IMG/VR virus record: IMGVR_UViG_3300033149_002193
Coordinates: 1 to 48,344 of that record
Source of the DNA: a virus
DNA length: 48,344 nt
Direction: 5' to 3' (one strand)
Under the pieces are notes generated by a model. That model did no database searches. It saw only the letters and a program-made list of their open reading frames with translations, and was not told the origin of the DNA. Positions 2,304 through 46,537 of this stretch are shown piece by piece (position 1 is the first letter of the stretch; each line of letters begins with the position of its first letter). The position numbers and the translations under genes were made by a program.

Positions 2304-2336
2304 GGTTGCTACGTTCAAAAAATGATAATAGCAACC
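2304..2336. repeat. Dispersed palindrome, copy 1
   Basis: GGTTGCTA at 2304 and TAGCAACC at its right end flank the core TTCAAAAAATGA. It lies directly 5' of the ribosome binding site of the next gene. Family description is in the findings. Confidence 0.85.
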
Positions 2337-2351
2337 GAAAGGAAACTTAAA

Positions 2352-2612
2352 ATGGAAAAGTTAGAAATATCTAGAAAAGAGTTGCTACGTTCAAAAAATA
2401 TCGATAGCAACCAATCACCTCTGGCCCTTAAAAACCTTACCATCAAAATGCTTGACCAGAAGCATAAAGGCACAAAAGTTTACTTTATATATACTGGCTA
2501 CAAAGAGAAGTATTTCGTCCTAACTATCAGAAAGGTTAACTTCAACCTGGACATTCGTAACTTAGAGGTAATCTGTTCGATGTATCAACTTAAAAAGGAG
2601 AACTTTAAGTAA
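2352..2612 (+). CDS. Small protein carrying an in-frame palindrome copy (86 aa)
   Basis: The ATG at 2352 follows GAAAGGAAAC; an upstream in-frame ATG at 2322 lies inside the palindrome and is less likely. The 86-residue product is basic with a beta-rich C-terminal half. Palindrome copy 2 (2381-2411) is read in frame as LLRSKNIDS near residues 11-19. The same peptide type appears in the 43554-43760 protein. The inserted segment may be a tolerated linker near the N-terminus. Function is unknown. The stop overlaps the upstream ATG of the HNH frame that follows. Confidence 0.65.
   Translation: MEKLEISRKELLRSKNIDSNQSPLALKNLTIKMLDQKHKGTKVYFIYTGYKEKYFVLTIRKVNFNLDIRNLEVICSMYQLKKENFK
2381..2411. repeat. 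Dispersed palindrome, copy 2 (coding)
   Basis: GTTGCTACGTTC and ATAGCAAC flank an A-rich centre. This copy lies inside the 2352-2612 coding sequence, in frame. Confidence 0.85.
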
Positions 2613-2653
2613 TGAAGATGAATGACTCGCATAGGTTTTGAAGTAAGGTAGAC

Positions 2654-3013
2654 GTGAAGGAAGATGATGACTGTTGGGAGTGGCAGGGTGATAAGAATGC
2701 TGGAGGTTATGGGCGCTTTAGCTTACATGGGAAAAAGGTTTTGGCACATAGATTTGCCTTATTAGGATATGATGTACTTCTTCCTAAGCAACTTCTAGGT
2801 TTTAATAAGTTGGTCTGTCACAAGTGTGATAATCCTGCATGTTGTAACCCTAACCACCTTTACAGAGGAACACAAACTGATAACATGAAAGATCGTTTTG
2901 AAAGGAGTAATGATAAAATATCAATTAAAGTAAGGGGCATTAGAGATTTTAAAAAGTCTATAGAAATTTCTTGGGATATTGAAAACTTTTTGGATGGGAC
3001 TGATATTTCATAA
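2654..3013 (+). CDS. HNH endonuclease, possibly interrupted by a TGA
   Basis: Residues include CWEW and GGYGRF near the N-terminus, then LVCHKCDNPACCNPNHL with paired cysteines and histidines. This is the zinc-bound HNH fold of phage homing-type endonucleases. The GTG start at 2654 has only a weak AAGG site. An ATG at 2612, overlapping the previous stop and preceded by AAGGAG, is in the same frame. That frame reads MKMNDSHRF, then TGA (2639-2641), then SKVDVKEDDD. Related proteins usually have RFWSKV here, so the TGA stands where Trp (TGG) is expected. Either the gene is truncated to the GTG start or it carries a nonsense mutation. Confidence 0.7.
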   Translation: MKEDDDCWEWQGDKNAGGYGRFSLHGKKVLAHRFALLGYDVLLPKQLLGFNKLVCHKCDNPACCNPNHLYRGTQTDNMKDRFERSNDKISIKVRGIRDFKKSIEISWDIENFLDGTDIS

Positions 3014-3029
3014 CATGCTAATTTTTTGA

Positions 3030-3057
3030 TTGCAATTATTTTCAAATCATGTATACT
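3030..3057 (+). promoter_or_regulatory. Sigma-70-type promoter for the 3155 gene
   Basis: TTGCAA (3030-3035), a 16-base spacer and TATACT (3052-3057) form a good host-type promoter. The leader of about 95 bases to the ATG contains a GGGC/GCCC hairpin. Together with the terminator at 3672-3713 this makes the next gene a separate transcription unit. Confidence 0.65.
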
Positions 3058-3154
3058 GGTTACATAAACGGTCGGAAATGGCCAAATGAATAATCAAACG
3101 AACAACCCAAACCGGGCCTAATGCCCACCAACTAACCCTTATAAGGAGAAAATC

Positions 3155-3553
3155 ATGTCAAAAGAACTCATTACCGCACGTTACACTGTTAAGGACGCAG
3201 AAGGCAATGTGGAAAAGGACGCCGAGGGTAAGGCGGTTTATGCAGAATGTCAGGCTGAGTTTGACTTTGGAGACAACCTGTCTGACTTGACCGCAAAATG
3301 TGGCGAAGATGTCGTTCGTACGAACGCTATCGCCAACATGAAGGTTTCTCTCCAGTCTCGTATTCGTGCCCTGCATAAGGCCGGCCTTGACCAATCCACC
3401 CTTCAGGGCCAGATTGATCAGTGGGTACCTGGCGTCATTGCTCAGAAGGTTGCAGTTGATCCGATCGCGGCCACCATGAGTCAGTTTGCTAACTGGCCGA
3501 AAGAAAAACAGCAAGAATTCCTGGCCAAATTGCAAGGTGGTTCTGCCGAGTAA
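3155..3553 (+). CDS. Probable abundant early protein (132 aa)
   Basis: The start follows ATAAGGAGAAAATC. The 132-residue product opens with a beta-rich part (residues 5-40) leading to FDFGDNLSDL, then a helical part with EDVVRTNAIANMKVSLQSRIRAL. This FDFG-then-helix layout recurs in small phage proteins whose function I cannot state. The protein at 46087 shows a similar order (IDFEGITVGQL, then KDLVIRRQAVERKL). The gene has its own promoter and terminator and is richer in G and C at third codon positions than its neighbours. Those traits suggest strong expression. A nucleic-acid-binding role is possible but not shown. Confidence 0.75.
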   Translation: MSKELITARYTVKDAEGNVEKDAEGKAVYAECQAEFDFGDNLSDLTAKCGEDVVRTNAIANMKVSLQSRIRALHKAGLDQSTLQGQIDQWVPGVIAQKVAVDPIAATMSQFANWPKEKQQEFLAKLQGGSAE

Positions 3554-3671
3554 AACTTCAACTGTCGGGAAGATTTTATGATTTTAAAAACTTGGCATAC
3601 TGTGAGTCTGGCCAGTATCTAAGCTAAGAATAAGATAACATAAACTACCGATTGATGATGATGAAGAGTCT

Positions 3672-3713
3672 AGTCGGAAGGGAGATTACACGCTAATTCC
3701 TTCCGACTTTTTT
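3672..3713 (+). terminator. Intrinsic terminator after the 3155 gene
   Basis: GTCGGAAGG (3673-3681) pairs perfectly with CCTTCCGAC (3699-3707) and is followed by six Ts. The stretch 3554-3671 shows no coding potential that I can support. Confidence 0.9.
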
Positions 3714-3744
3714 AGGGTATTAAATGTAAAAAGTTATAGAAATT

Positions 3745-3852: not shown

Positions 3853-3892
3853 AATAAATAAAATTAATTAAGCCCATAAGGAGATAAGGATT

Positions 3893-4889: not shown

Positions 4890-5102
4890 ATGATCTTTAA
4901 ATTTTTTGATAGATTAACGAAAAGAAGATATGAAGTTATGTTTAATAGAGGCTATGATTGGGCAGCGGGACAATTGATAAGGGGGAGAACAATATCATAT
5001 ATTAGGATGTTTCAAAAAACAGCTTATGATTTTCAGTCAAATTCTATTTTTGATGATGGTGCAGAACAGGCCATTTATGATTTTAAAAGTTTAATAAAAT
5101 AA
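4890..5102 (+). CDS. Hypothetical protein (70 aa)
   Basis: The start follows TTGGAGGCAATTAA. The 70-residue product is basic in its first half and acidic in its second and contains several aromatic residues. No family was recognised. Palindrome copy 3 begins two bases after its stop codon. Confidence 0.65.
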   Translation: MIFKFFDRLTKRRYEVMFNRGYDWAAGQLIRGRTISYIRMFQKTAYDFQSNSIFDDGAEQAIYDFKSLIK

Positions 5103-5103
5103 C

Positions 5104-5128
5104 GCTACGTTCAAAAATTGAAGGAAGC
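5104..5128. repeat. Dispersed palindrome, copy 3
   Basis: GCTACGTTC on the left and GAAGGAAGC on the right flank an AAAAAT centre. It stands just before the AAAGGAG ribosome binding site of the small gene at 5155. Confidence 0.8.
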
Positions 5129-5154
5129 AATCCCAAACGAAAGGAGATTTTTAA

Positions 5155-5310
5155 ATGGATATTAAGTCAATACAAGAATTTATCAGGTATACTACTTCAA
5201 AGATTCAAAAGTTAAACCGCGCTACTACAATAAATTCTTCGCCGGACTACTTCATTTCAAAAAGTTATCGGCGCGGTAACTTCAAGCAGAATCAGCGAAA
5301 AGGTTTCTAA
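5155..5310 (+). CDS. Small basic protein (51 aa)
   Basis: The ATG at 5155 follows AAAGGAGATTTTTAA, and the frame runs 51 codons to TAA at 5308-5310. The product is strongly basic with a C-terminus rich in Arg, Lys, Asn and Gln (SYRRGNF, then QNQRKGF). It may bind nucleic acid; no family was recognised. It fills what would otherwise be a gap between the 4890 and 5352 genes. Confidence 0.6.
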   Translation: MDIKSIQEFIRYTTSKIQKLNRATTINSSPDYFISKSYRRGNFKQNQRKGF

Positions 5311-8630: not shown

Positions 8631-9107
8631 ATGCAAGAAATTTGGAAAACAGTTCCAAGATATCCTGATTGTGAAGTTTCTAATGCTGGAAGGGTTAGGT
8701 ATAAAGCACATATAAAACCTCCGATAAAGGGTACTACTAATGGACTACATGAACGTACTCAGCATAAAAATAGAGGTGGTTATCACAGTGTTAATATCTG
8801 TGGCAAAAAAGAGTTTGTCCATGTTTTAGTAATAGAATCTTTTATTGGTGCAAGACCTGTGGGTAACGTTTGCGATCATATTAATAAGAATCCTGCAGAT
8901 AACAACGTTAAGAACTTAAGATGGATTCCGGCTGGAACTAATCTGAAAAGGAGTAATGTAGGAAGTCCAGTTAAATTTAATACTGATAAAATGCAGAAAA
9001 TTAAAGACCTTTATAAACAAGGTTTTACACAAAGAGTTATCGCTATAAAATTTAATTGCAGTCAGGGTACAATATCTAATGTTATTAGAGGAAAGTTTGC
9101 TTACTAA
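8631..9107 (+). CDS. NUMOD4-HNH homing endonuclease (158 aa)
   Basis: The N-terminus (EIWKTVPRYPDCEVSNAGRVR) is the NUMOD4 DNA-binding module. It is followed by an HNH_3 core containing GGYHSVNI, HVLVIESFIG, VCDHINKNPADNNVKNLRW and NLKRSN. A C-terminal helix-turn-helix (GFTQRVIAIKFNCSQGTISNVI) completes the protein, as in typical free-standing phage homing endonucleases. It makes a site-specific break in a related genome lacking the gene and spreads by repair. Palindrome copy 4 and a terminator follow. A 5' fragment of a related gene is found at 11234. Confidence 0.9.
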   Translation: MQEIWKTVPRYPDCEVSNAGRVRYKAHIKPPIKGTTNGLHERTQHKNRGGYHSVNICGKKEFVHVLVIESFIGARPVGNVCDHINKNPADNNVKNLRWIPAGTNLKRSNVGSPVKFNTDKMQKIKDLYKQGFTQRVIAIKFNCSQGTISNVIRGKFAY

Positions 9108-9116: not shown

Positions 9117-9143
9117 TGCTACGTTCATAAAATGAATATAGCA
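9117..9143. repeat. Dispersed palindrome, copy 4
   Basis: TTGCTACGTTCA and TGAATATAGCA flank a TAAAA centre. It lies between the stop of the homing endonuclease and an intrinsic terminator. Confidence 0.8.
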
Positions 9144-9209: not shown

Positions 9210-9443
9210 ATGACAAAGAGTGGGGGTAGTACACCGAACAGGTTAACTATTGACATAACCCCTGAACAGTACTATGATTTGAACAAGATCTTTGATTACG
9301 GAGAGCGCAAAATCTACTTTGCGGCCGTAGTTGATGCTACCATAGAACTGTACAATCGGGTTGGTAAGATAGGAATTTATGCAGTTATTTCAGGACAGGC
9401 AGAAATTCTCTCAACTTTGGCGAGTAATAAGGGAGTCGAGTGA
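9210..9443 (+). CDS. Hypothetical protein (77 aa)
   Basis: I place the start at 9210 (MTKSGG) after TAGGGGATATATCT; an in-frame ATG at 9156 lies inside the terminator and is rejected. The product is small with a mixed alpha-beta pattern. The stop overlaps the next start (TGATGG). No family was recognised. Confidence 0.6.
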   Translation: MTKSGGSTPNRLTIDITPEQYYDLNKIFDYGERKIYFAAVVDATIELYNRVGKIGIYAVISGQAEILSTLASNKGVE

Positions 9444-9699: not shown

Positions 9700-9921
9700 A
9701 TGGTACTTATTTCTATAGACAGTAATACTATTCTAAACATTGGAAATGGTAATCTTAAAAGGGTTGAGCTTGACTTTTCATCATCAATAAAGGATTATAA
9801 AAGATTAGTAATTTATACTAATAATAGAGAATTTTATATTGAAGATCAGAAGCGTGTAGATTTGTTGTGGAGTTATTTTGCAGATAAAGCGATTGAAACG
9901 GAGGCGGAGTTATGCAGCTGA
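9700..9921 (+). CDS. Hypothetical protein (73 aa)
   Basis: The start follows GTGAGGTGATGG. The 73-residue product is beta-rich at the N-terminus with a C-terminal helix and overlaps the ParB-methyltransferase gene by 10 bases. The overlap suggests coupled translation. No family was recognised. Confidence 0.6.
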   Translation: MVLISIDSNTILNIGNGNLKRVELDFSSSIKDYKRLVIYTNNREFYIEDQKRVDLLWSYFADKAIETEAELCS

Positions 9922-11234
9922 TTAAAATATCACTCAGTGAAATAGAGTTTGGTGAAAGGTTTAGGGTTGAGTATGAGAACATAGATATGCTGGCAGAGAG
10001 TATTCGCTCAACTGGAAATCTCCAACTGATCTCTGTTAGTGTAAACCCTGAGAAGGAAGGTAAACCTTATCTCTTAGCTGTTGGTGGTAGGAGGTTTAAA
10101 GCCTTTGAATACCTCAATAAGCACTATGATGAAACGTATAAAGAGATCCAAGTCTGCTTCTATAACAAGGTACTCACCGAGTTGGAAAGGCGAAGTATTG
10201 AAGCGGCTGAAAATATTGAAAGGGAGAACTTTACCTACGCCGAGGAATGTGCTATTCTTAAGCACGTACATGATCTTCAGACCAGTATCCACGGCGAGAA
10301 GGTTGCGAAGACAGCAGACGCTCCTGGATGGAGTAAGAGTGATACTGCTAAGATGGTGGGTAAAAGTGCTGCTACAATTAGTCAGGATATAGAATTGGCT
10401 GATGCTATTGAGAAGTATCCTGAGCTTCAACTGGATAAGGCCAAGAATAAGTCTGATGCTAGGAAACGGCTTAAGAAGGCGCAAGATCTCCTGATGAAGC
10501 AGGAACTGGCCCGTAATTATGCTAATACCATTGGTAACAACGATGCGGTTAAGCAGAAGTTAATCAACTCATACATCGTCAAAGACTTTTTCGAAGGGGT
10601 TAAGACTGTACCTGATGGTTCCATTGATCTGGTTGAGATTGATCCACCATATGCTATTAACCTTAAGAAGAATAAGAAAGAAAATTCTTGCTACGGTTAC
10701 AATGAGGTTGATCTGAATGACTATGAAGAGTTCATGCGATCAACTCTTATTGAGACCGAAAGGGTTTTAAAATATTCTGGTTGGGTAATTCTCTGGTTTG
10801 CTCCTGAACCATGGTTTGAAGTAATGTTTAAACTTCTTGAAGAGGTCGGACTTAAAGCTACTCGTATGTGTGGTGTTTGGATGAAGGGGTCTGGTCAGTC
10901 TATGCAGCCTCAGCATCGGCTTGCTAACTCGTATGAGATGTTCTTTTATGCTACTAAAGGCAAACCTCATTTGGCAAAACCTGGAAGTACTAACCAGTTT
11001 GTTTACCCACCTATCCCTCACACCCAGAAAATTCATCCTACAGAACGGCCTACTGAGTTAATTGAAGATATAATAACTACATTTGTTCGGCCTGGCAGTC
11101 AAATAATGGTTCCTTTTCTAGGAAGTGGTAAAACTATTACCGCCGCACATAAGGTTAATGTAAATGCCTTTGGATTCGAAATTACTCAGTCATATAAGAA
11201 TAGTTTTATTATAAAAGTTCAAGAGGAGTTTTAA
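9912..11234 (+). CDS. ParB-like domain fused to an adenine/cytosine-N4 DNA methyltransferase
   Basis: The 440-residue product starts with a ParB/sulfiredoxin-type domain (about residues 1-110) with the GGRR signature near residues 58-61. A helix-turn-helix region follows (WSKSDTAKMVGKSAATISQDIELADAI, about residues 140-165). The C-terminal half is an amino-methyltransferase with DPPY near residue 244 and the AdoMet-binding FLGSG near residue 402, the order typical of beta-class enzymes. It probably methylates N6-adenine or N4-cytosine in DNA and is targeted by the ParB and HTH parts. Likely roles are protection from host restriction or control of phage DNA. The target site is unknown. Confidence 0.88.
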   Translation: MQLIKISLSEIEFGERFRVEYENIDMLAESIRSTGNLQLISVSVNPEKEGKPYLLAVGGRRFKAFEYLNKHYDETYKEIQVCFYNKVLTELERRSIEAAENIERENFTYAEECAILKHVHDLQTSIHGEKVAKTADAPGWSKSDTAKMVGKSAATISQDIELADAIEKYPELQLDKAKNKSDARKRLKKAQDLLMKQELARNYANTIGNNDAVKQKLINSYIVKDFFEGVKTVPDGSIDLVEIDPPYAINLKKNKKENSCYGYNEVDLNDYEEFMRSTLIETERVLKYSGWVILWFAPEPWFEVMFKLLEEVGLKATRMCGVWMKGSGQSMQPQHRLANSYEMFFYATKGKPHLAKPGSTNQFVYPPIPHTQKIHPTERPTELIEDIITTFVRPGSQIMVPFLGSGKTITAAHKVNVNAFGFEITQSYKNSFIIKVQEEF

Positions 11235-11419
11235 TGAAAGAAATATGGAAAACTATACCTAGATATCCTGATTGCGAAGCATCTAATTTAGGTAATGTTA
11301 GATATAAAGAAGGATGTGTTCCGGCTAAGTGCTATACTGGTCGATATAGACCAAAACATAAAAGTAATGTTGGATATTTCAATGTCCGTATTTGCTCTAA
11401 AGTAGAATTAATCCATTAA
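11234..11419 (+). pseudogene. 5' remnant of a NUMOD4-HNH homing endonuclease
   Basis: The 61-codon frame starts EIWKTIPRYPDCEASNLGNVRY. It matches the first third of the endonuclease at 8631, including GYFNVRICSKVELIH against GYHSVNICGKKEFVH. It stops exactly where the HNH core should begin. The nuclease catalytic part and HTH are missing, so only the NUMOD4 DNA-binding module could be made. The start overlaps the stop of the methyltransferase gene. It is a decayed copy left by an old homing event, or less likely a kept DNA-binding fragment. Confidence 0.75.
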
Positions 11420-13088: not shown

Positions 13089-13577
13089 ATGACTTATGAT
13101 AAATCATTCTTTAAGATTTTTGACCTATCTCATAAGTGGCAGTTTTATAACATGCTCCAGGAACATGCTTATGATCAAGGATTTGAGTATGTTTCTGAGG
13201 CAATATATTACTTTTATGTCACTGAGCAATTAAGCACGAAGGCAGTAGGGCAAAAAATAGGGATGGGGCATGGAGGTGTTCAAAGGATACTTGCAAAAAT
13301 GAAAGTTCCTGCCCGAAGTAATAAGTATCCTATGATTGCTACTTATGGGAAGTATAACTTTGGCGGACGCTTCCATATTAAAACTATTCACCAACAAAGA
13401 AGGATCTGGTTTACGTGTGGTAAGATTGACACTGAAAGAAACCTTTACAGCTGGATACGTTGCAGTCGTTGTTACATGCAAGTCGTGGCAGATGAGGAGT
13501 TAACTTATACTCAAGTAATAAAGACACTTAATAATCATATATGTAGAAAGAATGAAAATGCTACGTTCAAAAATTGA
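13089..13577 (+). CDS. Helix-turn-helix DNA-binding protein (162 aa)
   Basis: After an N-terminal alpha region, residues about 40-75 read AIYYFYVTEQLSTKAVGQKIGMGHGGVQRILAKMKV. This is a helix-turn-helix like those of Mor/sigma-type regulators or endonuclease-associated HTHs. The C-terminal half has CSRC and HICRK and may bind zinc. The last codons (NATFKN, stop) are encoded by palindrome copy 5, so the repeat supplies the end of the gene. It may regulate phage genes or be a homing-related protein lacking a nuclease core. Confidence 0.6.
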   Translation: MTYDKSFFKIFDLSHKWQFYNMLQEHAYDQGFEYVSEAIYYFYVTEQLSTKAVGQKIGMGHGGVQRILAKMKVPARSNKYPMIATYGKYNFGGRFHIKTIHQQRRIWFTCGKIDTERNLYSWIRCSRCYMQVVADEELTYTQVIKTLNNHICRKNENATFKN

Positions 13578-13585
13578 TAATAGCA
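13559..13585. repeat. Dispersed palindrome, copy 5
   Basis: TGCTACGTTC and GATAATAGCA flank an AAAAAT centre. It overlaps the 3' end of the upstream gene, supplying its TGA stop, and abuts the ribosome binding site of the polymerase gene. Confidence 0.85.
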
Positions 13586-17157: not shown

Positions 17158-17184
17158 TGCTACCTTCAAAATTTGAACATAGCA
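17158..17184. repeat. Dispersed palindrome, copy 6
   Basis: TGCTACCTTCA and TGAACATAGCA flank an AAATT centre. It lies between the helicase stop codon and the AAAAGGAGC ribosome binding site of the next gene. Confidence 0.85.
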
Positions 17185-18713: not shown

Positions 18714-21700
18714 CGGCTAGGTCTCGATGGTCTTCTTTTCCGTCGAGATCTTTTTTCTTCAGGACGATATCTACCTATTAACATACCATAGATATCCTCA
18801 CCTCTCTTACCTGCCTTAATCATTTTATAAACCTGATTAGCCATAGGAACACCTCCTACCATAACAACTAATTCAAGAATATTTTTCTTAAAAGGATCAT
18901 CAGTTAACTGTTTACTAATTTCATTTACTACTTCAGCAGTTGGGCCAAGCATAGTTGAGCCATACCTCATACCACCGATTACTGGGATTGGTTCAAGAAG
19001 CTCTTTAGTAACATCAAGACCTATTCTAAAAGGATCTTTATCTTCTTTAATACCTTTATACAACGCCCTTGCTGGAGTAGGGAATGGTGAAGTAGTTCCC
19101 AAGCCATCTTCAAAAATTGATGTTATTAATGAAGTAGCTAATATATACTTAAATGTTCGAGTAAATGCTTCTTTATTAGTTAAGTTTCTATTTCTAATTC
19201 CAAGTACGTCCTTAGTAAATAAATTCCAATCATTAATAACAAAGGTCTGAAATAGAGTAAGAGCCTTACCTAAAAGACTTCCTTGAATAGGGGCAATATC
19301 AACTACAGAACTTGAAGCATTTACTTTAACTGTAATATCATCAGCATACTGTCGGAGTTTTTCACCACTAAGTTTTAATTTAGTTTTACCGTGATGGTGA
19401 GCAGCTTCCCAAGTAATCTGTCTGGCTATAGGGTCAAGAAACACTGTTGTTTCAAGAACTTTTTTACCTATATCCGTCTTAACCTTTTCAAGACTACCTA
19501 AGGCTTTACCGACTTTACCTAATTTAGTTAACTTACCATGACCCCCATAACTTCCTAAAGCAAGTGAGTCATAAATATCACTAATTGCAACCTCCATTGA
19601 GTTGCTTTCTATTACATGCGAAAGTTTTCTTGCATTAGATTTTCCAAATAAAACTTTCTTAATCCCAATTCCAGCACTTTTAAGTGGGACATATATAGGA
19701 AGATTTCTAGCTACTGCTAACTGAACTATACCAGTTCTAATATTGCCCGCTAAAATAGAAAGTGCTAAATTACTATTAACCTTTTTTACAATCTTTTTTA
19801 TTAATGCTGGTTGTGGGTGCTCTTCTAAACCAGCAAGTCTATTACTCCATTTACGAAAGAACTCAGCGGCATTAGGTTTATAATCCTTAAGTGATCCAAA
19901 TTTACCTGTTTTTGGATCTTTAATTGGGCGTAGAAATTCAGCAATAGTAGCTATAACGGGAGACATATGAATATGACGTAAACTAGAGTTAATATAGTGA
20001 GAATAAATATCAACTGGATTAAGTTCAACAAAACCTTTATATCCTGTACGACGTTTACCAAAGCGAAAACCTGTCATAGATGCCTGAGGCTTATGTTTTT
20101 CATTAATAATAAATGCTTTATCATTTATTATATTAGGCTGGAGACCTAATTCCTCAAGTATTCCATTTTGTCTAAAGAATGTAAGATAATTTTTGGTCTT
20201 TGTATATGGTCGTTGACCTATAGAAAGACGAGTATGATTACCTCTATTATAATGATTAGCAAATTTTTCCTCAAGTCTTGCTTTTGCTCTTAACTGTTTT
20301 TTATTAAGTGTGGGTATTTTAGTAATACCACCACCCTTAAGAATTTCAGGACCATGTTTTTCTGTATTAATCCACTCAATTCCAACCTCTTCCCATTCTT
20401 TACGTGAAAGATCTTTTTTAAGTTCACGTATAAAAGTCTGTTCAGCTTTAAGTTCTTTTACGTAACTGTGATTAGCCTCCCTTGCTTTATAATAAATCTC
20501 TTTAGCAAGACCTCCCATTCTTTCAACCTGATAAATGGTTCCAGTATAAGATCCCTTAAAAATCCCATCAGGAATTTCATAGATATCTTTAAGTCCACGA
20601 AGAATTTTCTTTGTTATTGGAGGTTTATAATATTTCTTACCATTAACAATGATCTTTCTCTGCTTAATAATTTCAGAGCCTTCTGCGAAAAGGAGTTGTT
20701 TGGGATTATTCTTAATCTCATCAGGAGATTCTCCAAACTTCTTTGCCGCTTCTGCTGCAACCCGAGGATCAATTCCCATCTCAACCATCGTATCGAAAAC
20801 TTTCCTACCACCCTGTTTAAGCTTAGCTTGAACTCGTTCAACTGCAGCAAACTTTTCCGGACCTAATACTTCACGACTGAATGATCCTCTTTCCTCTTTA
20901 AGAACAGAGAACAAATCCTCCACCAAACCCGGATCACGAAAGTCCATTTCAGGAGTAAGTTCTGTCGGCTCAAAAGCGTCATAGATGTCTTCGCCTGATG
21001 GGGTTTCAAACTCGTCGTCATAGTAATCCTTGATGGAACTTTCATCAACACTCTTAGCATCCTCCTTACGAAGTTCCTTACGGATCTCACCAAGTTCGAA
21101 TTCCTTCTTGTTAATGAAGTCTTCATACTCAAACTGATCCCTAAAATTCTCAGGCTTCGCAGCTTGGTACTCCTTAAGAAGTGCTGCTTCCTGCTGTCTT
21201 AAAGCATCCATATTAACAGGAGATTTACCTTCTACAGGAGCCTCATCTTTAAGTAGTGCAAGGATATTATCAGCAGCAGTATCAACGCTACGTTCAATTT
21301 TTGAAGGGAGCATTTCAGGCTCAACTGATTTAATTTCTGGTTCAAGTTCGGGTGTAACTTTAGGTTTAATAATATCTTTTCCAACAAGATCAACAGGTTT
21401 GCTATCATCAATTTTTGAAGGTAGCATGTCAGGTTCAGCTTTAAGTATAGGCTCTTCAATAACAGGTTTAGCCTCAGCCTTAACTTTCTCCTCTTTAATC
21501 TTATTAAGAGTTTCAAGCAAACTAGACTCAACTTGCTCACCAACTCTCTTACCTGCCTCAACATTAATGGGATCAGTAAGTTTTGCTTTAGCATTCATCT
21601 CAACTTCAGCTTCCTTAACTGCTTCCATTATCAAATCCTTCTCTGGAGTGGTAAGGTCTTCAGCCTTTGTTATTTCACCCTTAAGTTTACGTTTTGCTCT

Positions 21701-26462: not shown

Positions 26463-26479
26463 TAGTTAATCTCCTTATC

Positions 26480-26505
26480 GCTACGTTCAAAAAATGAACA
26501 TAGCA
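26480..26505. repeat. Dispersed palindrome, copy 9
   Basis: CGCTACGTTCA and TGAACATAGCA flank an AAAAA centre. It stands between the stop of the RCC1-BNR gene and the ribosome binding site of the 26462 gene. Confidence 0.85.
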
Positions 26506-30929: not shown

Positions 30930-30956
30930 TGCTATATTCAAAAATTGAACATAGCA
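30930..30956. repeat. Dispersed palindrome, copy 10
   Basis: TGCTATATTCA and TGAACATAGCA flank an AAAAT centre. It lies in the gap after the capsid gene and before the ribosome binding site of the 30919 gene. Confidence 0.85.
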
Positions 30957-32330: not shown

Positions 32331-32359
32331 TTGCTATTATCAAAAATTGAACGTAGCAA
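32331..32359. repeat. Dispersed palindrome, copy 11
   Basis: TTGCTATTATCA and TGAACGTAGCAA flank an AAAAT centre. It lies between the decoration gene and the ribosome binding site of the major capsid gene. Confidence 0.85.
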
Positions 32360-37266: not shown

Positions 37267-37782
37267 TTATACACAGAGAAGATCGATTAACCAATCTGCC
37301 CAATTATCTGATGCTGTATTGTTTGTTAGTTTAAAGAGATATAATGACTCAGCAGGAATTATTAATCCACGACTTATACCTGTACCACCGCCAGCCTTTT
37401 TACCAGATCCCATTTTATACTGGGCTATTTGAGTGCCATCATCAGAAACTGCCACACCTTTAAATAGTTGGTGAACTGTAGTATTTGTACTTGCTATATA
37501 CCTATTTAAAAGATTACACTTAGTACCATAATCAGTAATTGTCGGGCTTTTATAAATCGTAAGGGTAGCTTCAGTTTCTGACTCAAAAGAGAAGGTGAAG
37601 TAATTTTCTAAGTCGCAATCTCCTAACTTAAGCAGTAAATAATAAGATTCACTTCCCCCTATAGAATCTATAATCTCCTTATTATAAAACCTATGCATTT
37701 TAAAAATAGCATAATCATCAAACTGTACTGTAACACTACTCTGAATTTTAGTTAATGGATGAAGCGGTGAATATCCTGACAT
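37267..37782 (-). CDS. Beta-rich protein of unknown role (171 aa)
   Basis: I place the start at 37782 (MSGYSPLH) because ATAGGAGATCTT stands before it; an in-frame TTG at 37800 lies inside palindrome copy 12. The product has alternating strands and a glycine-rich loop (GSGKKAGGGTG) before a C-terminal part with LFKLTNNTASDNWADWLIDL. It lies between a small membrane protein and the portal gene. It may be a virion component; no family was recognised. Confidence 0.6.
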   Translation of the reverse strand: MSGYSPLHPLTKIQSSVTVQFDDYAIFKMHRFYNKEIIDSIGGSESYYLLLKLGDCDLENYFTFSFESETEATLTIYKSPTITDYGTKCNLLNRYIASTNTTVHQLFKGVAVSDDGTQIAQYKMGSGKKAGGGTGISRGLIIPAESLYLFKLTNNTASDNWADWLIDLLCV

Positions 37783-37790
37783 AAGATCTC

Positions 37791-37815
37791 CTATGTTCAA
37801 AAATTGAACGTAGCA
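37791..37815. repeat. Dispersed palindrome, copy 12
   Basis: CTATGTTCA and TGAACGTAGCA flank an AAAAT centre. It directly abuts the ribosome binding site of the 37782 gene. Confidence 0.85.
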
Positions 37816-39561: not shown

Positions 39562-39903
39562 TTATGCAATCACAGGGACTGATTGGAAGAAAGGAGTTAC
39601 CTGGAGGGTAAAGTTTGCTCCCTCAGCAGCATTGGCAAAACTCACCTTACCGAACATTTCACTGGGAATTTGAAAACTACTCGCAGCTGCCTTAATGTGC
39701 CCTAAAGCCTGCGTTGTATCAGCAGTAAAGGCCGCCCTTAAAGCATTCGTCTCAACTGACACATAGATACTTTTCGCCCTCTGATTATTATCATCCTTAA
39801 GCACCAACCCAGTAATATCACTCAAGTCATAGTTCGTATTACCTGCTGCTGTAAAGGTAACAGTAGTTCCTGGAATTCCCTCAAAAACTGAATTAGCCTG
39901 CAT
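39562..39903 (-). CDS. Small beta-rich virion protein candidate (113 aa)
   Basis: The start follows AAGGAGTATTATA. The product is beta-rich (GTTVTFTAAGNTNYDLSD, ANFTLQVTPFF) and neutral, in line with small decoration or head-completion proteins. It lies just before the large terminase and just after palindrome copy 13. No family was recognised. Confidence 0.55.
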   Translation of the reverse strand: MQANSVFEGIPGTTVTFTAAGNTNYDLSDITGLVLKDDNNQRAKSIYVSVETNALRAAFTADTTQALGHIKAAASSFQIPSEMFGKVSFANAAEGANFTLQVTPFFQSVPVIA

Positions 39904-39920: not shown

Positions 39921-39947
39921 TGCTATATTCATAAAATGAACGTAGCA
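39921..39947. repeat. Dispersed palindrome, copy 13
   Basis: TGCTATATTCA and TGAACGTAGCA flank a TAAAA centre. It lies in the gap just upstream of the ribosome binding site of the 39903 gene. Confidence 0.85.
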
Positions 39948-41295: not shown

Positions 41296-43116
41296 CTATT
41301 CAAATATGATTTTAGCAAGTTTTGCTTTAAATTCTGCTAATGACTGTTTTTCATTGAAGCTAAGGTTGGGCTCGGAGGACTTAAAGACTGTCTCAAGAAG
41401 TCCGGTTGCATCCTCGAGAACAAGAACTTTACCATCGAGAAGCTGTAAGTTTAAGTTACTAATTACCAAAAGACCATCAAACTGGCCAGGAGTGAAAGTT
41501 CTAACCGCCACTTTCCCGTCAAGAAGTTTTATGGTTGTATCCTTGAGATTAATCTTACCATCCAACAGACGGGTTTTACTACTTAAGACTTCAACTGACC
41601 CATCAAGAAGATCAGAAGTACTTATGATTACATCTACTTTTCCATTGAGAAGATTAGTATCAAGAATATAGTTAACATAAACCTTACCATCAAGAAGATC
41701 AGTGGTCTTTCCTTGGATGATTACCTTCCCATCCAAAATGTCAGCATCATAAGATCCGATAACTAACTTACCGTCAAGCAATGATTGGGTTAAAGATGTA
41801 AGTTGAATCTTACCATCAACTAAATCTGTTCCATCAGTTTTAACCTGAACTTTGCCATCAATAAGATTATGCCCTTGAGTTTCAATCATAACCTTACCAT
41901 CAACTAAATCCATATTAACCAGATGAACATGAATCTTTCCATCAACCAGTTCGGCGTCATCACTTAAGACAATAACCTTACCATCAAGCAGATTTGTACC
42001 AAACTGTCGGATATTAACTTTACTATTCGCTAAAAGAATTTCCCTGATTTTAATCCAGATCTTACCATCAAGCAGTTTAGTGTCTAACTTATGGATTTCA
42101 ACTAAACCGTCAAGAAGTTGTTCCGTCCCTTCGTTTACATAAAGAAGACCATCTGCCAAATTTGTGGCCTCACTTTTGACGATTGCTTTTCCATCAAATA
42201 AGTTAGTGCCTGCAGTAATCTCCTCAATAACTGTTTTACCATCAAGTAAGTTTGTCTCCTTATTTCCAACAATTACTTTCCCATCAAAGTTTAAAGTTGC
42301 CAGATCTTTTAGTCTAACCTTACCATCAAGAAGAGATGTCTCAAAATTTCCTGTAGCTGAAGGTAAGAAAAAAACTGGTTGGCTTGTCTTCTCAAACATA
42401 GCGTAAGGTTGTTCATTAATTAAAGCAATCTGATCTTGAGAAAGTACTATATTAAAAATATAAGCATAATAAAAATCAGCTTTAAGACTTCTTTTTGATG
42501 TTAAATCATAATACGACCCTAAAAAAATTGGATCTGTACTTGTTGGTGTGGCATCCCCAATAGATGTATTTTGTGATCGTAATAAGCCGTTCACATACAA
42601 TTTAAGCGCTATATTGGTTTCCCATGTTGCCGCGAACGAAAATTTTGTAGCATTGAGGTTTATGTGTAAAACGGTATTCTCATCAACGTCGGAACCGCTG
42701 ATAACAAAAGCCAAGCGATCATCCTGCAAAGAAGTTTGCACCCACCTACTACCATCAGTTACTCTATTTGAAATAATACCTTCATCATCACCCCCTAAAT
42801 CAAAAGGTGTTAATGATGCAACTATTGACCCTATTCCTGTATGTGGCAAACAATCACCACAAGAAATATAATCATTATCACCATCAAAAAATATAGAGTT
42901 ATATGTGTATAATGGATCTCCTATAAACACCCCATGATAGTTTTTCCCACTATAATCAAAAAGTGTAGTACCTGCACCTTCCCATATAGGCATCACTAAA
43001 ACAGGCATCGGCGCACCAAGTTTATTCTCACACCAATCACGAATTGCAGAGCTTACTTGATCAGGTGGACCCCAAAGTTTAGGCTTAACTTGTGGGCGTG
43101 ATATTACAGGAAACAT
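41296..43116 (-). CDS. LamG-like domain plus 22 tandem 14-residue repeats (606 aa)
   Basis: Residues about 50-245 resemble a concanavalin/LamG-type lectin sandwich (YHGVFIGDPLY, NDYISCGD, ALKLYVNGLLRS, PIFLGSYYD). From about residue 260 to 573 the protein is built of 22 repeats with consensus LLDGKVxV plus about seven variable residues. Nearly all are exactly 14 residues, with two of 16 and one of 15. A regular period with conserved Asp-Gly-Lys suggests a beta-solenoid or fibre shaft. A short charged helix closes the protein. A virion fibre or receptor-binding role is likely but not shown. Confidence 0.75.
   Translation of the reverse strand: MFPVISRPQVKPKLWGPPDQVSSAIRDWCENKLGAPMPVLVMPIWEGAGTTLFDYSGKNYHGVFIGDPLYTYNSIFFDGDNDYISCGDCLPHTGIGSIVASLTPFDLGGDDEGIISNRVTDGSRWVQTSLQDDRLAFVISGSDVDENTVLHINLNATKFSFAATWETNIALKLYVNGLLRSQNTSIGDATPTSTDPIFLGSYYDLTSKRSLKADFYYAYIFNIVLSQDQIALINEQPYAMFEKTSQPVFFLPSATGNFETSLLDGKVRLKDLATLNFDGKVIVGNKETNLLDGKTVIEEITAGTNLFDGKAIVKSEATNLADGLLYVNEGTEQLLDGLVEIHKLDTKLLDGKIWIKIREILLANSKVNIRQFGTNLLDGKVIVLSDDAELVDGKIHVHLVNMDLVDGKVMIETQGHNLIDGKVQVKTDGTDLVDGKIQLTSLTQSLLDGKLVIGSYDADILDGKVIIQGKTTDLLDGKVYVNYILDTNLLNGKVDVIISTSDLLDGSVEVLSSKTRLLDGKINLKDTTIKLLDGKVAVRTFTPGQFDGLLVISNLNLQLLDGKVLVLEDATGLLETVFKSSEPNLSFNEKQSLAEFKAKLAKIIFE
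41398..42339 (-). repeat. Coding tandem repeat, 14-codon period
   Basis: About 22 units of 42 bases encode the LLDGKV repeats. DNA identity between units is moderate: the Asp-Gly-Lys codons stay fixed while the rest has diverged. The array is therefore old rather than freshly expanded. Confidence 0.85.
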
Positions 43117-43550
43117 TAATTAGACTCCACACTAAACGTCCGATATTTCAAAGTATTCCCACTGGATGCAAAAGCCGCGCCGGTCACATTCTCGATATTA
43201 ATCTTAAACTTCCCAGGTGGGATGGTACAGATAGCTGAAACCTCACGATGTGCCGCACTAGTGGCCGCAACTCCTATGGTCGCCAAATGCTTGTAGGCCA
43301 AAGTATTGGTGTCCGCATAGTTGGTCCCATCCAAACTCTCGATCAAAAACAGATTAACGGCGGGATTAGTTTGGGCAGAGAGATCAACCGATGCCAGGAG
43401 AAGTTCGAACTTGACATACATATCCCTCCCAGTTGTATTATCAATCTCACTCCCCAAAGATGTACCATCATCTGCCAATGCGTCAAGACTGGCCGTAGCA
43501 ATTACATCATTTAACGTATCATAAGATGTCCAAGTATGAGTTGTTGTCAT
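43116..43550 (-). CDS. Beta-rich structural protein (144 aa)
   Basis: The start follows CAGGAGTAAGG. The product reads as a beta sandwich ([40 protein letters not shown]). It is similar in style to phage decoration or fibre-associated proteins. It ends at the start of the LLDGKV-repeat gene and may assemble with it. It is less AT-rich than the flanking genes. No family was recognised. Confidence 0.55.
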
Positions 43551-43553
43551 TCC

Positions 43554-43760
43554 TTACTCCTGCGCGCTATCTTCATTTTTTGAACGAAGCAAATCAAAAC
43601 CCAAAGTGTTCACATCAACTCCGAGACTTTCAGCAACTTTAACAGCAATTCCGAGAAGTTCATAAACTGTGATCTTCCCATCTTTCGCGGCGTCAAGTAT
43701 GCCATTAACCACTGTTGTCCCGATTCGAATGTAAGTCATGATCTTAAGAAAATTCATCAT
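43554..43760 (-). CDS. Small lysis-cluster protein with in-frame palindrome (68 aa)
   Basis: The ATG overlaps the lysozyme stop after ATAGGGAGATT. The product has IMTYIRIGTTVVNGILDAAKDGKITVYELLGIAVKVAESLG, helical with an acidic turn (DGKIT), and follows the lysozyme. A holin-accessory role is possible but no clear membrane span is present. The C-terminal LLRSKNEDS is encoded by palindrome copy 14, matching the peptide in the 2352 gene. Confidence 0.55.
   Translation of the reverse strand: MMNFLKIMTYIRIGTTVVNGILDAAKDGKITVYELLGIAVKVAESLGVDVNTLGFDLLRSKNEDSAQE
43566..43592. repeat. Dispersed palindrome, copy 14 (coding)
   Basis: GCTATCTTCA and TGAACGAAGCAA flank a T-rich centre. It lies near the 3' end of the 43554-43760 gene, read in frame on the minus strand. 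Confidence 0.8.
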
Positions 43761-44176: not shown

Positions 44177-44343
44177 ACCACTGATCCCCAAATAAGAACG
44201 GCCCGAAGTCCTTGTGCTCGCATGTTATTCTGATAATTCCTTGCAGCCTCCTTATCCTCAGCATATGGTCCGAACTCTCTCATCCACGAGTCGTATGCTT
44301 CATCAGATTCAGGATTAGTCACAACTACTAAGTATTTACGCAT
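44173..44343 (-). CDS. Hypothetical protein between small terminase and lysozyme (56 aa)
   Basis: The ATG at 44343 overlaps the end of the small terminase gene and follows GGGGGACTCT. The 56-residue product reads MRKYLVVVTNPESDEAY, then YAEDKEAARNYQNNMRAQGLRAVLIWG. This is a small beta-alpha-beta domain resembling short phage proteins of unknown function. Its stop overlaps the lysozyme start (ATGA), so the two are coupled. Confidence 0.65.
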   Translation of the reverse strand: MRKYLVVVTNPESDEAYDSWMREFGPYAEDKEAARNYQNNMRAQGLRAVLIWGSVV

Positions 44344-44896
44344 TCTCAGAGTCCCCCAAAATTTCGGCGTCAATTACTTCAGCATCTTCCACTTGTGTGG
44401 CGGCCTGTTTAAGTTTAAAAATTTCATCTGCAGTAAAATGCGCGTGCGTGTGAACACCTTTAATGGTCTGAGCCGGTTTCCCCATATGCCGGTCGAGCAT
44501 AGTATTACACTCTTTGAGGACCGTAGCGGCTTTCATATCTTCGCCATTCAAACTACCGGTTTCGATAACTTCCTTAATATTCTGAAGAGCCTTCGGTGCA
44601 ATTTCAGCAATTTGAGCCTGCAGATCAATAGCATCTGAATCCGCAGCCTTTTGCATAAGTTTGAGTTGCTGCTTTACGATAGGGCTGTTTTTCACCAATG
44701 TAATCATCTGTGCCGTAACGCCTAACTTATCAGCAATGGCCTTATTACTCATCCCAAGGAAAAGAAGGCGCTTAATAGTATGGTGAATATCTTGCATTTC
44801 CTTAAGAGTCCATGACTTCCTCTCATGCCCCGCAACTCGACGCCCATCACTTTCTTGCGCCGCTAAGTTGGTCTCACCTGTAGTGAAATCAAGCAT
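44336..44896 (-). CDS. Terminase small subunit
   Basis: The 186-residue product has an N-terminal helix-turn-helix (LFLGMSNKAIADKLGVTAQMITLVKNSP, about residues 45-72). Oligomerising helices follow, and then an acidic C-terminal tail. This is the layout of small terminases that recognise the packaging site and hand DNA to the large subunit. It is the first gene of the minus-strand late unit, directly after a strong promoter, with AAAGGAGGGG as ribosome binding site. Confidence 0.8.
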   Translation of the reverse strand: MLDFTTGETNLAAQESDGRRVAGHERKSWTLKEMQDIHHTIKRLLFLGMSNKAIADKLGVTAQMITLVKNSPIVKQQLKLMQKAADSDAIDLQAQIAEIAPKALQNIKEVIETGSLNGEDMKAATVLKECNTMLDRHMGKPAQTIKGVHTHAHFTADEIFKLKQAATQVEDAEVIDAEILGDSENA

Positions 44897-44980: not shown

Positions 44981-45090
44981 ATTATAAGTTTCTCCATTTT
45001 AAGTTTCTGATCAGAAAAACCTTTACGAAAACTTCTACAAAGTGCTTCAGCCGTTTTATTAAGTTGTGGTACTCAAAGAATGGCCCGTAA

Positions 45091-45117
45091 TGCTTCTTTC
45101 AATTAATGAAGGTAGCA
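45091..45117. repeat. Dispersed palindrome, copy 15
   Basis: TGCTTCTTTCA and TGAAGGTAGCA flank an ATTAA centre. It lies in the divergent control region, upstream of the late promoter. Confidence 0.75.
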
Positions 45118-45149
45118 AACCGATTAAGCAAGTTGCCCCACTTATGAGT

Positions 45150-45230
45150 TTTAACCTAACCCCATTGTTCCGGCCTTTGTTCGCTTCGCTCACTGGCCTT
45201 CACGTCGCTGCGCGACATGCTTAGGTTAAA
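45150..45230. other. Structured non-coding element in the control region
   Basis: A perfect 10-bp stem (TTTAACCTAA at 45150-45159 with TTAGGTTAAA at 45221-45230) encloses inner pairs GGCC/GGCC (45172-45175 with 45195-45198) and GTCGC/GCGAC (45204-45208 with 45212-45216). The inner part is GC-rich. A second inverted repeat, ATTTAGA/TCTAAAT, lies just after it (about 45247-45276). This could be a small RNA, a protein-binding or packaging site, or an mRNA leader element. Confidence 0.45.
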
Positions 45231-45340
45231 TACGAAACTTTTTACATTTAGAAAAACTTGGTACAAAATCTAAATAGGGCTATTGGGGCGGGTTTCATCT
45301 GGTTTTCCCCCATTGGTTTTGTCCATCTGGACCTGAAAAA

Positions 45341-45745
45341 CATGTGTGGATAACATGTTGATATTGTTGAGGTTTCATGTTTATGTTGACATGTGGGTGG
45401 GTTGTGGTAACATGGGAACCATCAATGAGCACGGACAACGTTGTGGGATACATGACGGGAACGTGTTTGAACGACATGTTGAGGGTTAATGTTGGCCACC
45501 ATGTGGGTTCTTTTACAATTGAATACCGCGACCGTTTGGGGTGGTTCACGGGCATGGGAATTTCATCCATGTGGTTATATGTGAATCATTGACGGACGGC
45601 ATGTGCGGGGGATTGGCCCACCGGAACGGGCAATGTCGGGCAATAACCAACGTGACGTTGGGATCATGACCGGGCGGGCTGGTTACATGGTGCAATGTTG
45701 GGATAACATGCATGATCCAGCCATTAACCACAACGTTGTGAAACG
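45341..45745. other. CATG-rich control region without a supported gene
   Basis: CATG occurs 15 times between 45341 and 45715. ACAACGTTGT occurs at 45435-45444 and 45730-45739, and a CCAACGT-G-ACGTTGG palindrome lies at 45647-45661. CAATGTCGGG and CAATGTTGGG form an imperfect direct repeat. G and T dominate the plus strand and GC is visibly higher than in the flanks. Reading frames of 60-90 codons exist on both strands but lack convincing protein character. It may be an origin, packaging or regulatory region. Confidence 0.5.
45345..45353 (-). promoter_or_regulatory. DnaA box
   Basis: TGTGGATAA on the plus strand is the exact complement of the consensus DnaA box TTATCCACA. It stands at the left edge of the CATG-rich region. 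A single box can occur by chance. Confidence 0.4.
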
Positions 45746-45810
45746 TCGTGAAGGGCTTATCTTCTTATCACCTCATATGGGTAATGATTTTATGATGGGG
45801 AGGGTTTTTT

Positions 45811-45978
45811 ATGAAAGTATATGAGATTATTGAGATGTTGAAAAGATTTGATGGTAATGTTGAGGTTGAGTTAGGTGTTATGGATTATGAGACGGAGGAA
45901 GCGGTTTATTATGAAGTAGGAGAGGCATTTAGTTTTAAGGATTTTAATGGGATTGAAAGAGTGATCATTCGTAATTAA
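45811..45978 (+). CDS. Small acidic phage protein (55 aa)
   Basis: The ATG follows GGGGAGGGTTTTTT, and the frame runs 55 codons to TAA at 45976-45978. The product reads MKVYEIIEMLKRFDGNVEVELGVMD, then YETEEAVYYEVGEAF and IERVIIRN. This is a compact alpha-beta pattern common among short phage early proteins with no known function. It is the first gene of the plus-strand unit right of the control region. The gap 45979-46086 holds only the ribosome binding site of the next gene. Confidence 0.65.
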   Translation: MKVYEIIEMLKRFDGNVEVELGVMDYETEEAVYYEVGEAFSFKDFNGIERVIIRN

Positions 45979-46086
45979 GGGTTAAATTATGTAACCGCCC
46001 ATATGTGGTGATAAGGGGATAAGTCATTAAGGGATTGTAACCTCTAATGGTGCCATGAAGTTGAGGTAAAATGAGGAAGGTGTTAA

Positions 46087-46461
46087 ATGACGAAACTTAA
46101 TGAAGATGGTACTGTTACTGGATTGACCGTTAAGAGGGCATGGAGTACGAAGAATGAAGATGGTGATAAGGGTAAGATGAATGCTACGATTGACTTCGAG
46201 GGGATTACAGTTGGTCAGCTTGCTGAGCTTGCGAGTAAGGATTTGGTCATTAGAAGGCAAGCGGTTGAGAGGAAGTTGAGTAAGGAGGAAATCGAAGCTA
46301 ATGACGGTCAAGTTATTCATTGGAGTCAAATGGGGCTTAAGGTTAAGTCACATGCTGAGAAGTTGGCAGGGCTTGTTGCGTTAGGTATTCCGACTCAGGT
46401 TGCTGAATTAATGCTGAGTGATCCTGAGAAGGCTAAGGAGTTGATGGAGAGTATGAGTTGA
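46087..46461 (+). CDS. Small protein resembling the 3155 product in layout (124 aa)
   Basis: The start follows GAGGAAGGTGTTAA. The product opens with strands (GTVTGLTVKRAW, KMNATIDFEG), then helices (TVGQLAELASKDLVIRRQAVERKL), and a C-terminal part with GIPTQVAELMLSDPEKAKELMESM. Strand-FD/DF-helix order and the charged helix after it recall the 3155-3553 protein. Both could be distant paralogues with a shared, unknown role. Two palindrome copies follow its stop. Confidence 0.65.
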   Translation: MTKLNEDGTVTGLTVKRAWSTKNEDGDKGKMNATIDFEGITVGQLAELASKDLVIRRQAVERKLSKEEIEANDGQVIHWSQMGLKVKSHAEKLAGLVALGIPTQVAELMLSDPEKAKELMESMS

Positions 46462-46469
46462 GGTTAAGG

Positions 46470-46497
46470 TTGCTACCTTCAGTTAATGAAAGTAGCA
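46470..46497. repeat. Dispersed palindrome, copy 16
   Basis: TTGCTACCTTCA and TGAAAGTAGCA flank a GTTAA centre. It is eight bases from copy 17, the only close pair of intergenic copies. Confidence 0.8.
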
Positions 46498-46505
46498 TCA
46501 GGGCG

Positions 46506-46537
46506 GTTGCTATCATCAAAAAATGAAGGTAGCAAAC
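46506..46537. repeat. Dispersed palindrome, copy 17
   Basis: GGTTGCTATCATCA and TGAAGGTAGCAAACC flank an AAAAA centre. It stands at the left edge of the origin-like region. Confidence 0.8.

Follow-up and report, generated by a model that had tools for sequence, protein, structure and literature searches.

Dispersed 27-bp palindromes as candidate binding sites for a phage ParB-methyltransferase fusion protein

Palindrome family in the viral genome

The window analyzed was the whole 48,344-nt virus genome IMGVR_UViG_3300033149_002193, which harbors 17 copies of a 27-bp palindrome, TGCTAYNTTCA-N5-TGAANRTAGCA (Table 1). A comparison of its first 25 kb with named phages by megablast gave no match. 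All 17 copies claimed in the first-pass annotation were recovered within 3 bp of where it had placed them; the family which it described as about 26 bp long with a centre of about five A/T bases was real, with an exact length of 27 bp and an A/T centre of exactly 5 bases in every copy. A pattern search allowing up to 3 mismatches returned 18 matches as against 0 for the reversed control pattern, and the 18th match, at 36658 with 3 mismatches, was chance-like. Six copies had no mismatch in either half, 10 had one, and the copy at 2383 had 3. Two close pairs are present among the copies, 2307/2383 and 46471/46508.

The copies were found mostly 0–40 nt 5′ of start codons, and those at 21286, 21400 and 2383 lie inside genes. 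The earlier view that they are not intrinsic terminators was supported. With one copy per about 3–4 kb, the sites were far more evenly spaced than expected at random (CV 0.40 vs 0.91, p = 0.0005), a regularity absent from the first-pass annotation.

Table 1. Coordinates of the palindrome copies and of the ParB-methyltransferase gene with its relevant segments
Feature	Position	Strand	Context
Copy 1	2307..2333	+	5′ of gene starting at about 2352
Copy 2	2383..2409	+	Degenerate near-duplicate of copy 1; within gene starting at about 2352
Copy 3	5103..5129	+	Genes 4890-5102 and 5155-5310 on either side
Copy 4	9117..9143	+	5′ of small RHH-like gene 9156/9210-9443
ParB-CTPase/HTH/N6-N4 methyltransferase fusion	9912..11234	+	Putative binder; PHROG and Pfam matches, covariation, structure-profile matches
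Loop before HTH (codons 127-140)	10290..10331	+	Tracks outer half-site
HTH recognition helix (codons 149-160)	10356..10391	+	Tracks inner half-site
Methyltransferase motif IV, DPPY (residues 244-247)	10641..10652	+	
Copy 5	13559..13585	+	Adjoins 5′ side of ribosome-binding site of DNA polymerase gene 13599
Copy 6	17158..17184	+	5′ of primase-like gene 17198
Copy 7	21286..21312	-	Within gene 18710-22240
Copy 8	21400..21426	-	Within gene 18710-22240
Copy 9	26479..26505	-	5′ of gene 26031-26462
Copy 10	30930..30956	-	Between capsid gene 30992-32296 and gene 30686-30919
Copy 11	32332..32358	-	5′ of major capsid gene
Copy 12	37789..37815	-	5′ of gene 37267-37782
Copy 13	39921..39947	-	5′ of gene 39562-39903, upstream of terminase large subunit
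Copy 14	43565..43591	-	5′ of gene 43116-43550
Copy 15	45091..45117	.	Divergent control region
Copy 16	46471..46497	.	Control region
Copy 17	46508..46534	.	Control region; 37 bp from copy 16

Palindrome sets of related phages

Searching related genomes for the same motif, as had been suggested, revealed a common geometry and not a common spelling. About 50 relatives (capsid identity roughly 50–80%), including Desulfofustis phage LS06-2018-MD01 (OP947158), carried their own palindrome set of 5–24 copies each, in which the 27-bp geometry was constant and the letters differed from genome to genome. The first set comprised 22 genomes with palindromes, extended to about 50 by adding more; in eight (G001, G003, G022, G028, G035, G037, G043, and G054) the palindromes were found only after better seeding. 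In all, at least 500 polymerase-bearing contigs exist. The major capsid junction that holds copy 11 is also occupied in the relative L011, by a palindrome of that phage's own set. The 10 sites of G022 were best found with the matrix of G028; the two genomes encode nearly identical HTHs, but the prediction is only partly independent as G028 is also the nearest relative of G022 (83%). Related degenerate sites were seen in G056, and no convincing palindrome set was found in G051, where the fusion protein is present. Even spacing was likewise observed across the relatives: the median CV was 0.48, against 1.02 when gene starts were picked at random (from heuristic gene calls), and 34 of the 37 genomes reached p<0.05. 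This suggests a genome-covering function, beyond what stoperators and promoters explain.

The dispersal of the copies, their two short-distance pairs and the intragenic location of some would be compatible with a small mobile palindromic repeat, as had also been proposed. Copying, however, should leave the sets alike in sequence and randomly spaced, whereas the sets of the relatives are each re-spelled at the same fixed geometry and evenly spaced, and such an origin is exceedingly improbable.

Symmetric DNA site versus RNA hairpin

As the first-pass annotation had rightly stated, the bases at the two inner variable positions of one arm vary independently of those in the other. In transcript orientation they were biased, with C or T upstream and mostly A downstream, so that the commonest mismatch was C.A, which breaks an RNA stem. 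That annotation had argued for a symmetric DNA-binding site as much as for an RNA hairpin, and the former part was supported. Hairpins acting in translation or RNA processing would agree with the adjacency of copies to ribosome-binding sites and with the transcript-oriented asymmetry at position d8, but C.A exceeded G.U mismatches, on per-genome totals in transcript orientation, by 157 to 68, and by 114 to 53 near start codons after removal of near-duplicate genomes; where direction was unclear, the counts were 44 C.A and 45 G.U (near-duplicates likewise removed). Conserved pairing with G.U tolerated over C.A was thus not found. In addition, the loop in this genome is mostly A-rich on the + strand whichever the direction of transcription, and the asymmetry itself fits hairpin avoidance beside the ribosome-binding site. 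The RNA reading is therefore highly improbable.

Domain organization of the ParB-methyltransferase

Three candidate binders had been named earlier: the ParB-methyltransferase, the HTH protein 13089 and the RHH protein 47427. The N-terminal region of the first gave profile matches to solved structures of Noc (1.7e-17), Spo0J, ParB, and KorB (2.7e-6), and the NTP-box residues G58, R60, R61, E100, N101, and R104 were invariant in 10 aligned members; the ParB_N match of this genome's protein alone was under the Pfam cut-off. The C-terminal part is an N6/N4 methyltransferase, and the ParB C-terminal dimerisation domain is absent; the protein is therefore a ParB-fold fusion and not a canonical ParB. 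No PF13614 match above cut-off, indicative of a cognate ParA, was found in 19 genomes, and a ParABS arrangement was not recovered. Nearly all members retain the methyltransferase domain. About five lineages with palindromes (G008, G054, G017, G025/26, and L092) have an altered motif IV, so methylation may not be the sole function.

Phage ParB-N6/N4-methyltransferase fusions of the same domain architecture have been surveyed and are among the common phage ParB fusions (PMC12704722); we found no DNA sites or function given for them in that survey. Our literature search found no report of DNA sites for such fusions. The fusions themselves were known, and a set of cognate sites is proposed for them here.

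Covariation of protein and site

An unbiased scan was carried out on 3,033 ten-residue windows from all conserved proteins, with core-gene distance controlled. For the inner half-site, the top windows were residues 149–158 (r 0.33) and 151–160 (r 0.32) of the ParB-methyltransferase, against a background SD of 0.084; for the outer half-site, they were residues 129–138 (r 0.62) and 127–136 (r 0.58) of the same protein (SD 0.136). Residues 127–140 tracked the outer half-site in every subset tested, the windows ranking 1, 3, and 4 of 2,958 among representatives with <62% core identity and 4, 8, and 11 without the AG clade. The correspondence between recognition helix and inner half-site was seen in the full set and was weaker in subsets (ranks 22 and 24 once the AG clade was removed; 118 and 296 of 2,958 among 26 representatives). 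Column-level mutual information by itself was confounded by the AG clade.

His153 was present in 6 genomes, all with G at position d6 and representing about four lineages, and in 0 of 35 genomes without G at d6 (Fisher p 4.6e-6), and of the 12 AG-outer genomes, 10 have a PG-type loop at 129–140, as against none of the 31 others (p 3.4e-8). Neither value is corrected for kinship, and the alignment had been inspected before the loop and residue classes were defined. G150-K151-S152-A153 of this genome aligns with G170-K171-S172-R173 of Caulobacter ParB, in which R173/Q173 is the proven ParB/Noc specificity residue (PMC7383237). In G039, a CT outer half-site goes with a CT-type loop while the other HTH parts are of the AG-clade type; the loop is therefore separable from the rest of the HTH.

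Over the whole protein, the correlation of the ParB-methyltransferase with palindrome distance was near zero (0.04), a value presumably lowered by the methyltransferase and CTPase parts, which would dilute the signal. By this measure, the small terminase subunit (44336-44896) ranked top among widely held families (partial r 0.42, 41 genomes; 0.64 in the first set), as would be expected if the copies were its binding sites for packaging. Nearly all of that signal came from the outer half-site, however, and it was 0.00 within the AG clade; the ParB loop outranked the subunit in the window scan, and the subunit was not found in palindrome-bearing G009, G024, G025, and G026, records that are possibly incomplete. 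A packaging role is accordingly very improbable.

The copies had also been likened to stoperators, the dispersed, genome-specific repressor sites of Cluster A mycobacteriophages. The binder would then be the RHH protein 47427 (or the RHH-like 9210). Both RHH families broadly follow the palindrome-bearing genomes, and the model of 47427 has an RHH-like helix pair, and the best, though weak, structure matches of this model are RHH proteins; no significant match to solved structures was obtained with the predicted structures of 47427 and 9210. Against such a binder, the phages G011 and G013 have 99% identical capsids and one common palindrome but different 47427 N-terminal domains, covariation of the two families was weak (0.14 and 0.09), and no integrase or resolvase was found (PF00589 in 22 genomes, PF00239 in 19). 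This assignment is improbable. The HTH protein 13089 is a very unlikely binder, as it was not found in 26 relatives. Among the three candidates, the ParB-methyltransferase was the one supported, by residue-level covariation and by alignment with ParB specificity residues.

Proposed function

Based on these sequence comparisons, the palindromes are probably dispersed parS/OB-like sites at which the ParB-CTPase-HTH-methyltransferase fusion encoded by the phage itself binds and loads, an assessment that concerns the identity of sites and binder and is separate from any downstream effect. That the spellings track the DNA-reading parts of the ParB-methyltransferase makes docking of this protein throughout the genome the most likely role of the copies. 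We infer binding, clamp loading, sliding, methylation and a biological effect as follows. In this genome, TTCA as the inner half-site would be read by the HTH recognition helix, and TGCTA as the outer one by the loop that immediately precedes the HTH. If the ParB-methyltransferase behaves like ParB, Noc, and KorB, its dimers would load at the sites when bound to NTP and then slide along the DNA; a site every 3–4 kb would let them cover the genome evenly throughout. Such coating probably carries the methyltransferase domain to the DNA of the phage itself, modulates phage transcription, or does both.

With the ParB-methyltransferase as binder, two roles were considered. It is possible, though on balance unlikely, that the clamps silence or time phage transcription in the manner of KorB or Noc, methylation being secondary. 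On both transcription units the sites are placed mostly 0–40 nt 5′ of start codons, the divergent control region contains sites as well, the lineages with altered motif IV keep their sites, and KorB is known to silence by sliding from dispersed operators (PMC11790492). On the other hand, the even spacing along long late operons and the intragenic copies fit coverage better than promoter control, and the fused methyltransferase domain is retained nearly throughout. The other role, self-specific marking, is advanced tentatively as a rather doubtful possibility: clamps would load only at the palindromes of their own phage, slide out from sites a few kb apart, and methylate the whole phage genome. 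If this were true, the site spelling would define self, methylation would protect against host restriction, and rapid re-spelling would stop co-infecting relatives from sharing the mark.

The assignment of sites and binder would supply cognate DNA sites for one large phage family and would offer an apparently modular reading code, with the helix for the inner and the preceding loop for the outer half-site. Some 50 natural protein-site pairs would allow tests of how ParB-type specificity evolves, and phages would join the short list of replicons with ParB-like clamps outside DNA segregation.

Comparison with known systems

Similar to the proposed system, KorB of plasmid RK2 is a ParB-family CTPase with an HTH, whose short operators (OB) occupy several positions in a single replicon, both close to promoters and distant from them (PMC11790492). 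However, OB is 16 bp (PMC11790492) and KorB has no methyltransferase, whereas the phage sites measure 27 bp, recur at even intervals, and have a spelling of their own in every phage. Chromosomal ParB/parS and Noc/NBS share with it the palindromic site, the profile matches to solved Noc, ParB, and Spo0J, and the alignment of residue 153 with R173/Q173 (PMC7383237); the phage system differs in its additional outer half-site with a tracking loop, its fused methyltransferase, and the lack of a ParA match above cut-off.

Stoperators of Cluster A phages (L5, Bxb1), 20–30 dispersed genome-specific repressor sites co-evolving with one DNA-binding protein (PMC6550527), offer the nearest known analogy, a repressor role. 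They come from temperate phages, measure 13–14 bp, and lack dyad symmetry, whereas the present sites are palindromic and cover the genome evenly, with no integrase found; a Cluster A-type immunity arrangement was not recovered. SPBRE of the Bacillus phage SPbeta, bound by the repressor MrpR (PMC10516654), is a 15-bp motif in about ten promoter regions of a temperate phage, with a binder of the tyrosine-recombinase fold; similar to what is proposed for the palindromes, it is a repeated intergenic element with one phage protein as the binder.

Palindromes in the window and its relatives

The 17 copies reported by the first-pass annotation were all present at the coordinates it gave, each of 27 bp with the structure TGCTAYNTTCA, five bases and TGAANRTAGCA (centre of five bases in 17/17 copies). 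A pattern search of the window allowing ≤3 mismatches returned these copies and one doubtful site, and the reversed control pattern gave no match in the same search. Sixteen copies had ≤1 mismatch, and copy 2383 was a degenerate near-duplicate of copy 2307. After merging of neighbors ≤400 bp apart, the gaps were even: their CV was 0.40, whereas randomly placed positions gave 0.91 (p = 0.0005).

The first-pass annotation had suggested a search of related phage genomes for the same motif. The exact window spelling occurred in six viral contigs only (motif scan), whereas de novo dyad searches revealed an own dispersed palindrome in nearly every capsid relative. Half-sites, read from outside to center, were TGCTATGTTACA in genome G002, CTNTGTTCAAA in G005, CTATGGGGA in G014, TAGACTGTTTAA in G010, TGAGCGGTCAA in G017 and GCTATGTCCCAA in the Desulfofustis phage. 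Palindrome sets were found in 48 genomes once 28 further genomes had been read, and later in G022, with 5–24 copies per genome; none was seen in the distant L093–L096 contigs. The geometry was constant, with an A/T-rich center, inner bases at d3–d7 (d, distance from the center) and an outer CT or AG at d10–d12. In 37 genomes ≥40 kb long, the spacing of copies was more even than that of randomly chosen gene starts (median CV 0.48 vs 1.02; p < 0.05 in 34/37). In the first genome set, 46 of 242 non-redundant copies lay within genes, and 118 of the 153 intergenic copies with a clear direction lay 0–40 nt 5' of a start codon. In G042 (L271–L273), the palindrome deviates (half-site ~CAACTCA-NN-GTAAA, 17 copies), as does the ParB loop (KAAPAIKTD).

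The first-pass annotation had weighed a DNA-binding site against an RNA hairpin. An RNA stem would tolerate G.U; in transcript orientation, mismatches at d3–13 comprised 157 C.A and 68 G.U (per-genome totals). With near-duplicate genomes left out, C.A:G.U was 114:53 for copies close to a start codon, 37:21 for distant ones and 44:45 for copies of unclear direction. The C.A excess suggests a DNA site, with a hairpin apparently avoided beside ribosome-binding sites.

Features of the window and their coordinates
Feature	Coordinates	Observation
Conserved ~128-aa protein	3155–3553	Present in 48 genomes
NUMOD4/HNH homing-type endonuclease	8631–9107	
Second small RHH-like family (~80 aa)	9210–9443	Just 3' of palindrome 9117; in 43 genomes (BLAST); no Pfam match
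ParB-methyltransferase	9912–11234 (+)	
Short second ORF	11234–11419	Directly after ParB-methyltransferase gene; N-terminus resembles the NUMOD4/HNH endonuclease
Gene containing two palindromes (21286–21426)	18710–22240	Palindromes encode a repeated MLPSKI[DE] peptide
Small terminase	44336–44896	
Protein resembling 3155–3553 product (by eye)	46087–46461	
RHH-like protein	47427–47939	

The probable reader of the palindromes

The palindromes, which are dispersed, evenly spaced and specific to each lineage, covary with two putative DNA-reading segments of the ParB-methyltransferase. Whole-protein distance correlations with the palindromes indicated the small terminase, though not cleanly (0.42, and 0.64 for the first genome set). 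Small-terminase distances also correlate with the outer half-site (0.49 over 41 genomes), possibly for phylogenetic reasons. A covariation scan of 3,033 ten-residue windows from all conserved families, with core-gene distance controlled, placed ParB-methyltransferase residues 149–158 and 151–160 (HTH recognition helix) at the top for the inner half-site and 129–138 and 127–136 (loop before the HTH) for the outer, in support of its first-pass listing as a candidate binder. Among 26 representatives the outer windows still ranked 1, 3 and 4; with the AG clade (AG outer half-site) left out, they ranked 4, 8 and 11. The inner windows dropped to 118 and 296, and to 22 and 24, respectively. Hence, the link of the loop to the outer half-site is robust, and that of the recognition helix to the inner half-site rests partly on specific residues.

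His153 was found in six genomes (G006, G014, G033, G036, G038, and G040), each of which carries G at d6, and in 0/35 genomes lacking that base (p 4.6e-6, which overstates independence because the six represent about four lineages). The helix start DHK is common to G014 and G036 (both GGGGA), and SK[AS]SIISD to G017 and G058 (both GGTCA). Position 153 is preceded by GKS, as is R173 of Caulobacter ParB by G170-K171-S172; R173/Q173 sets parS vs NBS preference in that protein (PMC7383237). A PG-type loop, a class drawn up after the alignment had been seen, was present in 10/12 AG-outer genomes and 0/31 others (p 3.4e-8). G039 combines an AG-clade-type helix with a CT-type loop and CT outer half-site, a sequence combination that separates the two putative readers, helix and loop.

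Domains, known systems and proposed mechanism

A profile built on residues 1–222 of the ParB-methyltransferase matched the solved structures of Noc (1.7e-17), Spo0J, ParB and KorB (2.7e-6). The C-terminal part matched N6/N4 methyltransferases and carries DPPY (residue 244) and FLGSG (residue 402). Methyltransferase motif IV variants occur in genomes with palindromes: DPDW (G008, G054), DPDF (G017), DIDY (G025/26) and DFPY (L092). Judging from these motifs, either methylation would not be the sole function or the variants may still be active.

By analogy, the system would work like KorB/OB and ParB/parS. It fits neither that type nor the Cluster A stoperators (PMC6550527) as an ordinary member, because the methyltransferase stands in place of the ParB dimerization domain, no ParA was found in 19 genomes, the sites are longer and carry an outer element, and Cluster A stoperators lack symmetry. 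The distribution of the palindromes over the genome resembles that of the stoperators, to which the first-pass annotation had compared them. The passages of a ParB-fold survey on phage ParB-methyltransferase fusions (PMC12704722) suggest anti-defence or host interaction for them and give no DNA sites; no description of these palindromes was found in open-licence literature.

As in ParB and KorB, ParB-methyltransferase clamps would load NTP-dependently and slide on DNA. KorB acts on promoters up to 1.5 kb distant (PMC11790492), and with a palindrome every 3 kb, sliding clamps would cover the genome. The outcome could be methylation of the phage's own DNA, transcription control, or both; methyltransferase delivery is rated slightly ahead of KorB-like silencing.

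Gene content of the virus

The window (48.3 kb) codes for polymerase, primase-like, Cas4-like and Sak4/RecA-like proteins, terminase, portal and capsid. Among named phages, its best match is Desulfofustis phage LS06-2018-MD01 (capsid 50%, polymerase 43%), and Pseudomonas phage PaP2 is one of the more distant relatives. Searches for integrase (PF00589) in 22 genomes and for resolvase (PF00239) in 19 gave no match; capsid matches in the genome collection were entire 48–50 kb contigs binned into MAGs, none being a prophage inside a larger contig. The ParB-methyltransferase gene of G012 (L130, L132) and the capsid gene of G048 (L289, L291) are divided between contig ends; therefore, the maps are circular or circularly permuted. 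Between G011 and G013, whose capsid proteins are 99% identical, the RHH-like protein has a nearly identical C-terminus and a different N-terminal DNA-binding domain (L127:7272–7874, L134:11761–12426), a pattern suggestive of domain swapping within the control region.
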